IMG/VR virus record: IMGVR_UViG_3300044612_001094
Location: 1 to 22,508 of that record
Source: a virus
DNA length: 22,508 bases
Strand: one strand, 5' to 3'
The first letter of the stretch is position 1; each line of letters starts with the position of its first letter. Under the pieces are notes generated by a model. That model was not told the origin of the DNA and did no database searches. It was given only the letters and a program-made list of their open reading frames with translations. The position numbers were made by a program, and so were the translations under genes. Shown here piece after piece: positions 5,424-21,835 of this stretch.

Positions 5424-7970
5424 GTGTATAGGAACGCATCATATAACCCACGAGAGGGTACTGTTTATCTAAGAACTTGGACTGAGGACGGTCATCGTAT
5501 CGATACCGAAGTTCCGTTCACACCTTATCTCTATACCGAGCATAAGGAGTCAAAAGACGCTACGTCCATCTTTAAAACACCGCTTAAAAAGCATTACTTT
5601 AAGAATACTTTTGAACGTACTAAGTTTGTTCAAGAAACTAAGAATCCAAGACTATTTGGCAATCTCTCTGTCGATCAACAGTTCTTGGTTGACCGATTCA
5701 AGGAGGATGTTCATAAACCTGAGTTCAGTCAGTTTCCTCTCAAGGTATTCTTTATCGATATTGAGACGTATTCACCAGGTGCTTTTCCTATTCCGAAGTA
5801 TGCTAAAGACCCAGTCAATCTTATAACCGTACTCGACACTCTTAGCGGCAAGATTCATACCTGGGGTCTTAGGGAAGACTATAAACCCAAACTCGATAAC
5901 GTTACATACTATTGTTGTAAGACAGAAGGTGAATTGTTTGAGAGATTTGTTAACTTTTGGAAGAAAGATCCGCCTGATATTCTGACCGGTTGGAACACCG
6001 AGCAGTTCGACATTCCTTATATTATCAATCGAGCTAAGAACTTACTCGGTGAAGACTTCATTAAACAGCTCTCACCCGTCGGTCAGGTACACTATAGAGA
6101 AAACTTTGCTAAGTTTGGTAAAGAGATGGGTCGGTGGTATATTTCTGGTATTAGCTGTTTGGACTACATGGAAATTTACAAGACGTACTCCAAGGGTGAT
6201 AGAGAGTCGTTCTCTCTAAACTACATTTGTGAATACGAACTTGGTGAAGGTAAACTAGCAATCAATGCTACTAATCTTTCTTCGCTCTCTGAAACTGATT
6301 GGGAAAACTTTGTCGATTACAACATTCAAGACGTTGATCTACTTCGTAAACTTGAAGAGAAGCTAAACTATCTTAAAATTATTCGACTCTTGTCTTATAA
6401 AGGCTGTACAAACTTTGAGAGAGCTTTAGGTAAGGTATCAATTGTAACGGGTGCTATGACGCTCCAGGCACAGAAGCAAGGATACGTCATTCCTACCTTT
6501 AAGAATGAAACTGAAAGAGAATCTCTTGAAGGTGGTTACGTTAGAGATCCAGAGAGAGGTCTTAAAGAGGCTATTGTATCGTTTGACGTTAACTCACTGT
6601 ACCCTAACACCATTATTACCCTTAACATTGGTTCTGAGACGAAGTTAGGTAAAATCGTAACCGGTGATCCCGAATACGATAAGGAAGTTGAGATCAAACT
6701 TGAGTCAGGCGGTATGTTTAAAGTTACTACTGATAAACTCAAGAAGTTCTTAAAAGACGAAAACGTCGCTCTATCTAAAGCAGGGGTATTGTACTCGCAG
6801 AAGTTTAAAGGTGTCTGTCCTAACCTGATTAATAGTATCTATGACGAACGTGTCTATGCACGTAACGAGATGCTTAAGCTTAAAAAGACAAAGCAGAAGG
6901 ATAAAGAAACAGTAGGTAAGATTCAATACTTTGATACACTTCAATACACGTTAAAGATCCTTCTTAACTCCATTTACGGTACGTTTGCTAACAAGCATTC
7001 AGCGTTCATGGATATTGATAACGCTTCGTCGATTACTTTGACTGGGCAAGCTGTTGCTAAAGCAGGCGGAGCCATTGTAGATACCTGGGCTAAAGAAAAG
7101 TTTGGTATTACTGAATCGCTTATTATTGCCGGAGATACAGACTCTCTATATACAACAATTCAGCCTATTCTCGACAAACTGGGTCTACCTTTAGTTAAAG
7201 ACGGTAATATTACTTCTGAGGCTCATCAGATCATTAATGCCATGGAAAAACATCTCAATACTGAGATCATTAACTGGGCTAAAACTGATCTTAATTCTGC
7301 TGATCCTCGATTTGTCTTTAAACGTGAAGCTATTGCTGACGTTGGGTCGTTCTTACAGAAGAAGCGTTACATTATTCATATCTTGGACGAAGAGGGCGTT
7401 CCTACTAATAAGTTTAAGTATGTAGGTGTTGAATTGGCACGGTCAACAACCCCTAAGGAAGTAAAGGCCTTGATTAAGAAAACTATTGATACGGCCTTCC
7501 TTACAAAAGATATTAAGAAGACTAATGAAGTGTTCCGGGAGGCTTACGATCACTTTAAAAACTTGGATGTATCTGAAGCCGCTTTCCGTAAGGCTGTAAA
7601 AGAGCTAGAAAAGTATTCAGGTGGTGCTTCATTACATAAGTTTAACCTCGGTACCCCTTGTCACGTAAAAGCTGCTCTTGCCTATAACTTCTTACTTGAG
7701 AAGATGGATATACAGACCAAATATGAAAAAATTAACTCTGGCCAGAAGATCAAATACTTCTACGCTATGAAAAATCCTTATGGTCTAGATGCTGTAGCGT
7801 TTACTGGAGAGTACCCTGGAGAGTTTCACGAGATTAAGATTGACTACGATAAAATGTTCGGTAAAATTGTAGCTCCTCCTATTGAACAGGTTTATGAAGC
7901 TATCGGATGGAGATTGCCGGTAATTGGCAAAGAAGTTCAAACAGATTTATTTGATTTATTTGGAGACTAA
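5424..7970 (+). CDS. 43: Family B DNA polymerase, T4 gp43-like
   Basis: 848 aa (T4 gp43 is 898), the replicative polymerase with 3'-5' proofreading. Exo I FFIDIETYS with D112/E114; Exo II NTEQFDIPY with D196; Exo III YNIQDVDLL with D303. Motif A SFDVNSLYP with D388; motif B KILLNSIYG at 511-519; motif C GDTDS with D571/D573. All catalytic residues are present, so both activities should be functional. The last ten residues (QTDLFDLFGD) resemble the C-terminal clamp-binding peptide of T4-type polymerases (LFDMFDF type), consistent with the gp45-like clamp at 17507-18244. The start is GTG at 5424, placed 14 nt after the preceding stop; homology begins at once (MYRNASYNP). No intein or intron interrupts it. 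Confidence 0.96.
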   Translation: MYRNASYNPREGTVYLRTWTEDGHRIDTEVPFTPYLYTEHKESKDATSIFKTPLKKHYFKNTFERTKFVQETKNPRLFGNLSVDQQFLVDRFKEDVHKPEFSQFPLKVFFIDIETYSPGAFPIPKYAKDPVNLITVLDTLSGKIHTWGLREDYKPKLDNVTYYCCKTEGELFERFVNFWKKDPPDILTGWNTEQFDIPYIINRAKNLLGEDFIKQLSPVGQVHYRENFAKFGKEMGRWYISGISCLDYMEIYKTYSKGDRESFSLNYICEYELGEGKLAINATNLSSLSETDWENFVDYNIQDVDLLRKLEEKLNYLKIIRLLSYKGCTNFERALGKVSIVTGAMTLQAQKQGYVIPTFKNETERESLEGGYVRDPERGLKEAIVSFDVNSLYPNTIITLNIGSETKLGKIVTGDPEYDKEVEIKLESGGMFKVTTDKLKKFLKDENVALSKAGVLYSQKFKGVCPNLINSIYDERVYARNEMLKLKKTKQKDKETVGKIQYFDTLQYTLKILLNSIYGTFANKHSAFMDIDNASSITLTGQAVAKAGGAIVDTWAKEKFGITESLIIAGDTDSLYTTIQPILDKLGLPLVKDGNITSEAHQIINAMEKHLNTEIINWAKTDLNSADPRFVFKREAIADVGSFLQKKRYIIHILDEEGVPTNKFKYVGVELARSTTPKEVKALIKKTIDTAFLTKDIKKTNEVFREAYDHFKNLDVSEAAFRKAVKELEKYSGGASLHKFNLGTPCHVKAALAYNFLLEKMDIQTKYEKINSGQKIKYFYAMKNPYGLDAVAFTGEYPGEFHEIKIDYDKMFGKIVAPPIEQVYEAIGWRLPVIGKEVQTDLFDLFGD

Positions 7971-10889: not shown

Positions 10890-11264
10890 ATGAGTAACTC
10901 AGAAAATAAAATTGTAGTGTTCTTCGATTCAGTCGGCAGAACAATCCTTGGCGAAAAGCTTGAAGACAAATCAAACGACAAAGTTCTTTCTATTAAGAAC
11001 CCTGCTGTCGTTCACATCATGCCTAATCAACAGACTGGGCAACTCCAACTTCAAATCCTTCCTTTGTTCTTCAAAGAATTTTTAGCTGATAAAAACGAAG
11101 GCACAGTTTGGAGCTACAATCGTGCTAACATCACTGAAGCTGTTGATGTTGTATTTGACTTTAAACTTGAAGCTCAACACCGTCAAATCTTTGCTGCTAT
11201 GCCAGCACCCGCCCCTCAGCAACCTCAAGGTTCGCCTGAAGTCATCCGTTTGTTCGATGAATAG
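10890..11264 (+). CDS. Small conserved-type phage protein, candidate Sm/LSm-like fold
   Basis: 124 aa, no signal or membrane segment. The region 6-45 (NKIVVFFDSVGRTILGEKL, then LSIKNPAVVHI) has the alternating strand pattern with 'D-x-x-G-R-x-I-x-G' that recalls Sm/Hfq-like domains, and a second block follows (LQLQILPLFFKEFL). Sm-like proteins of presumed cyanophage origin are known, so the idea is plausible, but it rests on pattern only. The C-terminal 20 residues are Pro/Gln rich and end in EVIRLFDE, a short hydrophobic-acidic peptide similar in style to clamp-binding tails. Its leader has ATATATAAGACT directly before the ATG and no Shine-Dalgarno. The last 40 nt overlap the 3' end of the convergent homing endonuclease gene. 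Function unknown. Confidence 0.6.
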   Translation: MSNSENKIVVFFDSVGRTILGEKLEDKSNDKVLSIKNPAVVHIMPNQQTGQLQLQILPLFFKEFLADKNEGTVWSYNRANITEAVDVVFDFKLEAQHRQIFAAMPAPAPQQPQGSPEVIRLFDE

Positions 11265-11908
11265 TTAGTATATCTTTTTAAAAGTATTTTACTTTTATTT
11301 TTTACTAAACTACAAACAGGATCAATAGTACATCCTAAAGCTTTACTAGCTTCAGTAGCAGAGTTATAATATAAGATATTTCCAGTAATGGTATCTAATA
11401 ATTCTACTTTTAAACTATGAGTCGGTTTATGACCTTTTTTAGCTTTACTCATTGCTAAACAATGCTCGGGACTCTTTTTAATGCCCTTCATAGCTCTACT
11501 AACACCTTCCCCTCTACGTTTTATTAAAGCTTTAGATGGTTTTGGATATTTTTTACCTAGATTGGCTCCTCCGTTACCACCCGTAGCTTGAAGTTTTATA
11601 TTATAACCATTTTTAATAGTGTTAAGTTTTTTAATATAAAATTCTTCTTTTTTACGACAATCTTTAACATTTGTGTTTATTATTTCTAATACCTCAAATG
11701 CAAAATTTTGCATCCCGTATTTGTTAAAAGCATTAGTGAGTTTTTTATTATAGTAAGTATGTTTATGTTTTGCATATTGATTAAACCTTACCCAAAAACC
11801 CTTACCACATTTTCGAAAAGTACTGCCAATATAAATTTTATTGTTCAATAAGTTTTTAATTTGATAAACGCCATTATTGTATTTATAATTTTCGCTAATA
11901 AATTGCAT
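11225..11908 (-). CDS. GIY-YIG homing endonuclease (free-standing, T4 Seg-like)
   Basis: 227 aa and the only gene on the minus strand. GVYQIKNLLNNKIYIGS (13-29) contains the GVY and YIG halves of the GIY-YIG nuclease. R41 (FWVRFNQY) and E88/E89 (RKKEEFYI) fit the catalytic Arg and metal-binding Glu, and GYN at 101-103 completes the domain. Residues about 118-160 carry a lysine-rich NUMOD3-type DNA-binding segment (KALIKRRGEGVSRAMKG, SPEHCLAMSKAKKG). Residues about 168-215 form a NUMOD1-type helix-turn-helix (YYNSATEASKALGC). It is very AT-rich compared with uvsX next door, consistent with recent arrival. Its last codons run 40 nt into the 3' end of the opposing gene, so it inserted at a gene border. 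It would cut related phage genomes lacking it and spread by repair; it is not needed by the phage. Confidence 0.9.
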   Translation of the reverse strand: MQFISENYKYNNGVYQIKNLLNNKIYIGSTFRKCGKGFWVRFNQYAKHKHTYYNKKLTNAFNKYGMQNFAFEVLEIINTNVKDCRKKEEFYIKKLNTIKNGYNIKLQATGGNGGANLGKKYPKPSKALIKRRGEGVSRAMKGIKKSPEHCLAMSKAKKGHKPTHSLKVELLDTITGNILYYNSATEASKALGCTIDPVCSLVKNKSKILLKRYTNYSSNKRMTSGEP

Positions 11909-19009: not shown

Positions 19010-21835
19010 GTGCCCAAAAGCAAAGATATATTTACAGATCCCTACGATGATGTTATAATCGAAAACCCTATAGACGACTCCCAGTACTATAGAGGTGATA
19101 AAAATGTTCCCAAAGAAGATGCACAGTTTGAGTGGACCCCTAAGATGGTCAAGGAGCTCAAGAAGTGTAAAGAGAACATTATTCATTTTGCTGAGAATCA
19201 CTTCTGGATTGTAAACCTCGATAGAGGTAAGATGAAGATTGAGCTTTATAAGGCTCAAAAGAAAGCTCTCAAGTCCCTTGCCGACAATAGGTTTGTCTGT
19301 GTCTTAGCCTCCCGTCAATGCGGTAAAGCTCTAGCTCTAGATACACCTATATTAACCAAAGACGGTTGGTCCACAATGGGTCAATTAAAAGACGGTGATA
19401 CTATATACGGATCAAATGGACAGTTTGTCCGGGTACTCAAAGCTCATGAACCTTTATATAACCGCAATTGTTATGAAGTAGTGTTCGATAATGGTGAAAA
19501 AATCGTAGCAGATGAAGAGCACTTATGGTTCACTCAAACCAGAAAAGACCGGCATAAAAAAGATACTGGGTCAGTTAAGACGACTAAAGAAATTCTAGAT
19601 ACGCTATTAACACATGGTGGTGAACCTAATCACCGCATACCTATGAGTATGACAGGTGTTGAGAGTGAAATAAAAGACCTACCTATTGAGCCGTACATTC
19701 TAGGTTTTTGGCTCGGCGATGGAACCACTGATACCGGGACTATAACTGTCGGTGATAGAGATTTACCTGAGATTATAAATCTATTAAATGAAAGTGTACA
19801 ATTTGATCAAATAACCTGTAAACGTTATAAACAACAAAGCACCTTTGTAAATATAACGTGTTCTGAAAAAAAGCGAAGTAAAAGTTTAATCTCTATTTTA
19901 AAAGAAAATAATCTCCATAAAAATAAGCATATACCTGAAATATACTTTCAGTCATCCCGAGAACAAAGATTAGAGCTACTAAAAGGTTTAATGGATTCTG
20001 ATGGCTATATTGATTCAAGAGGTTATGCTAATTTTTATAATACAAATTTAGAACTAGTTAAACAGGTAAGAGAATTAGTAGAGAGCTTAGGTTATAAAGT
20101 TACTGATAAAAAATTTATACCTAAATTAAACGGAGTAGAATGTAGTGAGTGTGGTATCGTAATTTTTAAACCACGTGAATTAGTTTGTAAGTTATCCTTT
20201 AAAACAAAAAGAATTAAAGTAGAACCACAAATTAACAACAGTAAAAAAAGAACACATTATCATTACATTAAAAAAATTACACCTGTCAAGAGTGTTCCTG
20301 TGAGATGTATAACAGTTAATAGCGAAGATAGTTTATATCTTGCCGGTAAACAGCTCATACCTACACATAATACAACAATCACCACGATATATGCACTCTG
20401 GAATACTTGCTTCTTTGACGACCAGAGAGTTATTATTGTAGCCAACAAAGAGAACACTGCCATTAACATCTTTAAGAGAATAAGAATGGCTTATGAACTC
20501 TTACCCAACTATCTCAAGCCCGGTGTTAAAGAGTACGGCAAGACCGGGGTAACTTTTGCTAACGGTTCTAGTATTGGTATTAGTACTACTACTTCGACAG
20601 CAGCTCGTGGCGACACCGCTTCTATTCTTTGTATTGACGAGGCAGCCTTTATTGACCCGCACTTCATGGAAGAGTTCTGGAAATCAGTTATTCCTATTGT
20701 TTCATCAGGTAAGAAGACAAAAATTTTTATGGTGAGTACCCCTAACGGTACCGGTAACAAGTTTTACGAAATATATTCAGGAGCTGAAAAAGAGACTAAT
20801 GGATGGCATGCTGAAAGAATTGACTGGTGGGATGTCCCAGGTAGAGGAGAAAAATGGCGCAAACAGATGGTAGCTGCTCTCGGCTCTGACGAAGCATTTC
20901 AACAAGAGTTTGGTAATACCTTTCTGGATGCTGGTAACTCTGCTGTTGGTGCTTCGGTTATTGAAAGGTACAAAGAAAATAAAAAGCCGGTTATTTGGCG
21001 CGGGGAAGGAGATGCTTATAGAGTGTTTGAACTACCTGATCCTTCTAAGCTATATGTAGTTGGTGTTGACGTTGGTGAAGGTATTGGGAGAGCCTCTTCC
21101 GTAGCTCAAGTACTTGATGTTACAGACTTAACTGAAATAAAACAAGTAGCTGTTTACGGAACTAATGTTGTAGAACCTTATCACTACGCCAATAAGCTTG
21201 TTTGTTTAGCTGGTCAGTGGGGCAACCCTCCATTATTAGTAGAAAGAAATAACTGCGGCGGTCAGGTAATTGATGCTCTCTTTCACAAACATATGTATGA
21301 AAGAATTGTTTCATGTTCTAAATTAGCCAATACGGGATCTTTTTCGAACACTAGACATTTAGGTATTCTCTCCCACAACAATTTACGCTTTGCAGGAGTG
21401 GCTAATATGCGTTACTGGGTTAACTTTTTACAGACAGTTTATATTAATGATATGGATACTATTAAGGAATTAGAAACCTTTATTAGATATCCTAACGGTA
21501 CATATAGAAAGAAGAATGATAATTTTTATGACGATAGAGTTATGTCACTTGTCTGGGCTTTGTTTGCTCTCGAACCAGAAATCTGTGAACAAATATTTCA
21601 AGTTGAGCAATACGATGATCAGAATAAACCTTTAAAAATCTTAGATAACGGTTTTTACGAGATTCAGAAAGAACTATATGGAGTAAAAGAATTAAATAAT
21701 CTAGATACCTCTACCGGTTTAATGACTAACGAATCTGAAAAATACGAACCTTTGATTTCTCAAAGGGAATTAGAAAAAATGCACGATAATTCAGATTATT
21801 GGGATTTAATGGATGGAGGTTGGAAGCCACTATAA
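19010..21835 (+). CDS. 17: Large terminase subunit, T4 gp17-like, interrupted by an intein
   Basis: 941 aa as translated; removing the 348-residue intein leaves 593 aa, near T4 gp17 (610). It packages DNA into proheads using an ATPase and cuts concatemers with a nuclease. ATPase: Walker A SRQCGK (101-106) continuing as TT (455-456) after the intein, Walker B ILCIDEAAF with D543/E544, and coupling motif VSTPNGTG (575-582). Nuclease (RNase H fold): VVGVDVGEG with D687, LLVERNNCGG with E745, NFYDDRVMSLV with D841/D842. All active-site residues are present. The start is GTG at 19010, nine bases after the previous stop; no upstream ATG fits. The Walker A motif is split between K106 and T455, so splicing is needed for an active motor. 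Confidence 0.95.
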   Translation: MPKSKDIFTDPYDDVIIENPIDDSQYYRGDKNVPKEDAQFEWTPKMVKELKKCKENIIHFAENHFWIVNLDRGKMKIELYKAQKKALKSLADNRFVCVLASRQCGKALALDTPILTKDGWSTMGQLKDGDTIYGSNGQFVRVLKAHEPLYNRNCYEVVFDNGEKIVADEEHLWFTQTRKDRHKKDTGSVKTTKEILDTLLTHGGEPNHRIPMSMTGVESEIKDLPIEPYILGFWLGDGTTDTGTITVGDRDLPEIINLLNESVQFDQITCKRYKQQSTFVNITCSEKKRSKSLISILKENNLHKNKHIPEIYFQSSREQRLELLKGLMDSDGYIDSRGYANFYNTNLELVKQVRELVESLGYKVTDKKFIPKLNGVECSECGIVIFKPRELVCKLSFKTKRIKVEPQINNSKKRTHYHYIKKITPVKSVPVRCITVNSEDSLYLAGKQLIPTHNTTITTIYALWNTCFFDDQRVIIVANKENTAINIFKRIRMAYELLPNYLKPGVKEYGKTGVTFANGSSIGISTTTSTAARGDTASILCIDEAAFIDPHFMEEFWKSVIPIVSSGKKTKIFMVSTPNGTGNKFYEIYSGAEKETNGWHAERIDWWDVPGRGEKWRKQMVAALGSDEAFQQEFGNTFLDAGNSAVGASVIERYKENKKPVIWRGEGDAYRVFELPDPSKLYVVGVDVGEGIGRASSVAQVLDVTDLTEIKQVAVYGTNVVEPYHYANKLVCLAGQWGNPPLLVERNNCGGQVIDALFHKHMYERIVSCSKLANTGSFSNTRHLGILSHNNLRFAGVANMRYWVNFLQTVYINDMDTIKELETFIRYPNGTYRKKNDNFYDDRVMSLVWALFALEPEICEQIFQVEQYDDQNKPLKILDNGFYEIQKELYGVKELNNLDTSTGLMTNESEKYEPLISQRELEKMHDNSDYWDLMDGGWKPL
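19328..20371 (+). mobile_element. Class 3-type intein with LAGLIDADG endonuclease in terminase Walker A
   Basis: Encodes residues A107 to N454 of the terminase ORF (348 aa). Block A is ALALDTPILTKDGW, with Ala at position 1 in place of Cys/Ser. Block B EEHLWFT has His171 and Trp173. Block F VRCITVNSEDSLYLAG has Cys433. Block G LIPTHN has Thr452-His453-Asn454, followed by +1 Thr455. Trp, Cys and Thr at these positions are the WCT signature of class 3 inteins, where the block F Cys replaces residue 1 as first nucleophile. The endonuclease carries both LAGLIDADG motifs: YILGFWLGDG (229-238) and LLKGLMDSDG (323-332). The DNA is more AT-rich than the flanking exteins, a sign of later insertion. 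Endpoints follow from rejoining SRQCGK with TT. Confidence 0.93.

Follow-up and report, generated by a model that had tools for sequence, protein, structure and literature searches.

The insert in the large terminase subunit (TerL) of this virus is, with a probability of roughly 93%, an intact and mobile class 3 intein that occupies the Walker A loop of this T4-type TerL and that is predicted, from its sequence, its modelled fold and analogy with characterised inteins, to splice via the cysteine at position F:4. The terL gene is located in a complete virus record of 22,508 bases (hereafter the window, which is the whole stretch of DNA that was analysed) and forms a single open reading frame at 19010-21835, with a GTG start and 941 codons for amino acids without any interruption of the frame. 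Other T4-like genes of the window encode a B-family polymerase, a UvsX-type RecA and a DnaB-type helicase, in addition to a gp46-type nuclease and a tail-tube-like protein, the latter two called by inspection or below the cut-off. The features of the gene are as follows.

19010..19327, plus strand: N-extein of TerL, residues 1-106, with the Walker A half SRQCGK at its end; residues 26-107 align with T4 gp17 up to SRQLGK, and the end agrees with the empty alleles
19328..20371, plus strand: predicted class 3 intein, 348 residues, Ala1 to Asn348 (precursor residues 107-454)
19328..19330, plus strand: Ala1 (block A:1), without an N-terminal nucleophile, from the alignment
19520..19528, plus strand: block B, with His65 (B:10) and Trp67 (B:12), precursor residues 171 and 173; the same numbers as His65 and Trp67 of the MchDnaB1 intein
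19688..20120, plus strand: LAGLIDADG homing endonuclease domain, limits approximate (Pfam LAGLIDADG_3, E 1.2e-7, above cut-off; fold match to PI-SceI)
19718-19720, plus strand: Asp131 in LAGLIDADG motif 1, GFWLGDG
19925-19927, plus strand: Lys200 of block D
20000-20002, plus strand: Asp225 in LAGLIDADG motif 2, GLMDSDG
20306..20308, plus strand: Cys327 (F:4; precursor residue 433), proposed first branch-point nucleophile
20363..20371, plus strand: end of block G, with Thr346 (G:5), His347 (G:6) and Asn348 (G:7), precursor residues 452-454, from the alignment
20372..20374, plus strand: Thr+1 (precursor Thr455), first residue of the C-extein, from the ORF translation and the empty alleles
20372..21832, plus strand: TerL C-extein, the rest of the ATPase and the nuclease domain, of T4 gp17 type (Pfam, phmmer)

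The exteins identify the host protein. In a phmmer search of the PDB with the full query, T4 gp17 (3EZK) is matched with an E-value of 6e-49 over precursor residues 26-107 and 454-848, and this homology spans both the ATPase and the nuclease domains, as in T4-type TerL. The C-extein also scores above the cut-off for Terminase_6N (T4likevirus-type) in Pfam, which upholds the T4-like terminase host of the initial annotation; an NCBIfam search of the 941-residue precursor returned no family above the cut-off.

The intein splits the Walker A motif of TerL between lysine and threonine (SRQCGK/T). Its boundaries are fixed at the codon level because 42 related TerL loci have an empty site and read contiguously across it as SRQxGK followed by TT or ST (GK-TT or GK-ST). 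Moreover, the left-flank DNA of the window is near-identical, up to the join, to that of empty alleles, for example L010, L014 and L033, so the intein has been inserted with codon precision. The ORF translation and these empty alleles give precisely the interval that had been proposed from the sequence.

A comparison with characterised inteins places the splicing residues. Precursor residues 107-176 and 422-454 align without gaps with the class 3 DnaB1 inteins 6BS8 and 6RIX (phmmer against the PDB, whole-sequence E-values of 6e-19 to 2e-18), and Ala1, His65, Trp67, Cys327, Thr346, His347 and Asn348 each pair with the same residue in the DnaB1 inteins of M. smegmatis and M. chimaera. In the MchDnaB1 intein the corresponding residues include His65, Trp67, Cys124 and Thr143 (PMC7664689), and the spacing of 19 between Cys and Thr (124 to 143) is that found here (327 to 346). 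The TerL intein thus combines the absence of a nucleophile at position 1 with Trp at B:12, Cys at F:4 and Thr at G:5, and it additionally has His at B:10, His-Asn at G:6-G:7 and Thr at +1. A class 1 intein would begin with a Cys1 or Ser1 nucleophile; the residue here is Ala1, at a boundary set by the empty alleles. The initial annotation had named Ala1, Trp173, Cys433, Thr452, His453-Asn454 and the +1 Thr455 (the latter five in precursor numbering), all of which are found at these numbers, and it had held that a Cys or Trp lying off F:4 or B:12 would speak against a class 3 intein; the gap-free alignment puts both on those positions and likewise confirms the placement of Trp, Cys and Thr in blocks B, F and G.

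The same signature is retained in an alignment of 172 relatives, which were collected by similarity and come from viral contigs, bacterial genomes and phage records. All 172 have Cys F:4, Thr G:5 and His B:10, and Trp B:12 is present in 171, a conservation that is partly circular, as the relatives were collected by peptide-pattern scans and one of the patterns includes this Trp; none of them includes Cys F:4, Thr G:5 or residue 1. Residue 1 is Ala in 157 of the 172, only three have Cys or Ser, and 169 lack Cys, Ser or Thr at this position. The +1 residue is Ser or Thr throughout (172/172), and the insertion lies directly after Gly-Lys in 154, in a P-loop for most of them. Several relatives deviate in single features. 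The inteins of L064 (5007-6035) and L072 (Pleione gp218) have the full WCT signature yet start with Ser1, mixing features of class 1 and class 3, and that of L153 has Cys1 with WCT. In the T4-type TerL of L005 (5259-6314), L094 and L061, class 3 inteins have Ser in place of the penultimate His (PTSN end). The intein in the TerL of Vibrio phage VCO139 (L077) has Ala1, Cys F:4, Thr G:5 and apparently Asn at B:12, and is a possible deviating class 3 intein, in a long-branched row whose alignment is unsure.

An AlphaFold model of the intein, built from an alignment of seven related inteins, has a mean pLDDT of 76, with values mostly of 80-94 in the splicing part; residues 293-308 and some of the endonuclease are poorly modelled. 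The predicted splicing domain superimposes on chain C of 6BS8 with a Z-score of 21.7 and an rmsd of 1.2 Å over 125 of 125 residues (41% identity), which is its best match among the HINT-only chains listed; gp41-1, in its class 1 and engineered forms, reaches 18.0-18.3, and the other HINT-only chains listed do not exceed 17.9. Among the HINT-only chains listed, class 3 structures are the nearest to the predicted HINT fold of the model. Compared as a whole, the model matches PI-SceI, which combines an intein and a LAGLIDADG endonuclease in two domains, with a Z-score of 25.8. Sequence, predicted fold and comparative evidence agree in supporting the class 3 assignment.

The endonuclease domain contains two LAGLIDADG motifs with their catalytic acids, and Asp131, Asp225 and Lys200 are invariant across seven aligned inteins. 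Its GC content is 31%, versus 38-41% in the exteins. Between the window and the related locus L002, whose intein is 84% identical, the dN/dS of the intein is approximately 0.04 with dS near saturation, a constraint equal to that of the exteins; over all comparisons it is about 0.04-0.22, and these values are rough, as dS is near or at saturation. The dN of the endonuclease part is likewise low. These substitution patterns indicate that the intein is under purifying selection. In the endonuclease, which the initial annotation had described as active-looking, the acids are kept, dN is low, and Pfam and the fold match agree; the domain is predicted to cleave DNA. A second endonuclease gene is present in the window at 11225-11908 on the minus strand, where Pfam identifies a GIY-YIG endonuclease that is free-standing and has a NUMOD1-like part; it lies between a small ORF, the end of which it overlaps, and the UvsX-type recombinase, and is likely a homing endonuclease.

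All chemical steps of the proposed splicing route are carried over from characterised class 3 inteins (PMC5222942, PMC7664689, PMC4031507). Intein residues 1 to about 85 would come together with residues about 310 to 348 as the HINT domain, in which Cys327, aided by His65 and Thr346, would attack the Lys(-1)-Ala1 bond and carry the N-extein in thioester linkage. Transfer of the N-extein from Cys327 to Thr+1 would follow, Asn348 would cyclise with the assistance of His347, and an acyl shift would restore the native GK-T bond, such that ATP binding by the TerL ATPase would have to await splicing. The element would spread by homing, with the LAGLIDADG domain cleaving terL alleles that lack the intein close to the Lys/Thr codons.

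Ala1 is also a class 2 residue (PMC4031507), which by itself would suit an intein of the KlbA type. In that review, the known class 2 inteins are orthologues of KlbA and have Cys+1, Asp at F:4 and Ser at G:6 (PMC4031507), whereas the TerL intein has Thr+1, Cys at F:4 and His at G:6, and its nearest HINT-only structures are class 3, which makes a class 2 identity highly improbable. The insert could also be broken or capable of cleavage only, with splicing lost and TerL either dead or processed into two pieces, given that a metagenomic contig could represent a defective genome and that splicing of this intein is a prediction. However, the frame of 941 codons is open, every catalytic residue is present, purifying selection acts on intein and exteins alike in the comparison with L002 despite the high dS, and TerL is an essential packaging ATPase whose Walker A loop would be ruined by an intein that did not splice; a defective insert is thus very unlikely.

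A further consideration is that the class 3 intein might double as a post-translational switch that delays the activity of the packaging ATPase, for example by redox sensing at Cys F:4, a mechanism proposed for a M. smegmatis DnaB intein. The presence of a single catalytic Cys and the splitting of the P-loop would be compatible with such a role, and a mycobacterial DnaB intein has been reported as an oxidative stress sensor (PMC6195587). Nevertheless, no sequence feature points to regulation, and the 42 related loci without the intein fit a dispensable selfish element, so we consider regulated splicing unlikely and retain the reading of an intact, mobile class 3 intein.

Among known systems, the Mycobacterium DnaB1 inteins (Msm DnaBi1, 6BS8; Mch DnaB1, 6RIX/6RIY) share Ala1, His B:10, Trp B:12, Cys F:4, Thr G:5, the HN end and insertion after GK, and their HINT folds lie within 1.2-1.5 Å of the model of the TerL intein. 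They differ in their DnaB helicase host, in Ser at +1 and in the sequence of the splicing domain (about 41% identity), and the solved forms are mini-inteins without an endonuclease. The inteins of Krischvirus MIZ4 and AV108 (Straboviridae; OR167180, OR352938) also have Ala1 and the class 3 signature, are inserted into a T4-type TerL at the identical Walker A position (SRQLGK/TT, +1 Thr) and are of endonuclease-containing size (331 residues), but they are only about 36% identical. In a quick tree of 163 inteins with SH-aLRT support, the intein of the window falls within a clade of 23 inteins from T4-type metagenomic TerL (SH-aLRT 100), and the Krischvirus pair is placed outside this clade, so it probably represents a separate arrival. 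Host labels in the tree were derived from the Walker A pattern alone, and counts of independent arrivals are accordingly approximate; at least one row labelled "TerL1_like", L118, is actually a T4-type TerL.

The TerL intein of the RaK2-like (Alcyoneusvirus) Klebsiella phage W12-3 (PP728206, an unannotated record marked unverified) has the W, C, T and HN residues, a LAGLIDADG domain and the GK/T site (ARQMGK/TT), but starts with Leu1 and is about 30% identical. The inteins of the mycobacteriophage C1 exonuclease (Pleione gp218) and of the LittleE TerL share the WCT signature, a LAGLIDADG domain and about 38% full-length identity (37.6% for Pleione gp218, one of the named full-length matches). 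Pleione differs in Ser1 and in a site outside a P-loop, and LittleE in a site other than the GK/T of Walker A. Pleione gp218 and its fellow C1 mycobacteriophage proteins are of the Catera Gp206 kind, and Catera Gp206 was reportedly tested for splicing as a class 3 intein by Tori and Perler in 2011. The T4-like Salmonella phage Mooltan (Kuttervirus; MH688040) was considered as a class 3 precedent and rejected: its intein occupies the same GK/T Walker A site of a T4-type TerL but is a 159-residue class 1 mini-intein (Cys1, Asp F:4, Phe B:12, SHN end). TerL inteins were previously noted in RaK2 and K64-1 (PMC5259590), and, in mycobacteriophages, both P-loop inteins of TerL between Lys and Thr and class 3 inteins were described in 2016 (PMC5050341). 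None of the papers searched was found to assign class 3 to the intein of a T4-like TerL, but the present call is a direct application of known criteria.

Two contigs that are 99.99% identical (L061 and L066) are the only ones found with two inteins in one TerL gene (L061, 4878-8537). The first, at the Walker A site, is a 141-residue class 3 mini-intein with a penultimate Ser, and the second, before Walker B, is class 1-like (Cys1, Cys+1) and divided between two ORFs that flank one for a GIY-YIG endonuclease (6109-7014). A split class 3 intein was considered for these contigs and rejected, as the class 3 intein is intact and the split one is the class 1-like intein downstream. Maturation of this TerL would need both cis and trans splicing, and we take the arrangement to resemble AceL-TerL-like split inteins and the "fractured gene" layout.

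The initial annotation had regarded a T4-like terminase as a notable host and class 3 inteins as a minority. The former finds little backing, since class 3 inteins occur at the same site in Krischvirus, in RaK2-like phage and in metagenomic T4-type TerLs, and the latter is dated, with 1,701 class 3 inteins catalogued in 2020 (PMC7891396). The TerL intein is an ordinary class 3 example with many relatives at the same spot, some of them in named coliphages. It is a tentative and rather doubtful proposal that the Lys/Thr joint of the T4-type Walker A is a hot spot entered repeatedly and independently by inteins of different classes (class 3 inteins as a large clade in uncultured phages and as separate arrivals in Krischvirus and RaK2-like phage, and a class 1 intein in Kuttervirus), with splicing possibly timing the onset of packaging. 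Knowledge of the intein mechanism is unchanged by this intein. It does offer a clear class 3 example whose endonuclease is complete and for which many matching empty alleles exist within a single narrow group of T4-type phages, a set well suited to studies of homing and of class 3 splicing outside Actinobacteria. For annotation, it serves as a reminder that the absence of an N-terminal Cys from the insert does not prevent a TerL of more than 900 residues from being a normal, splicing terminase.
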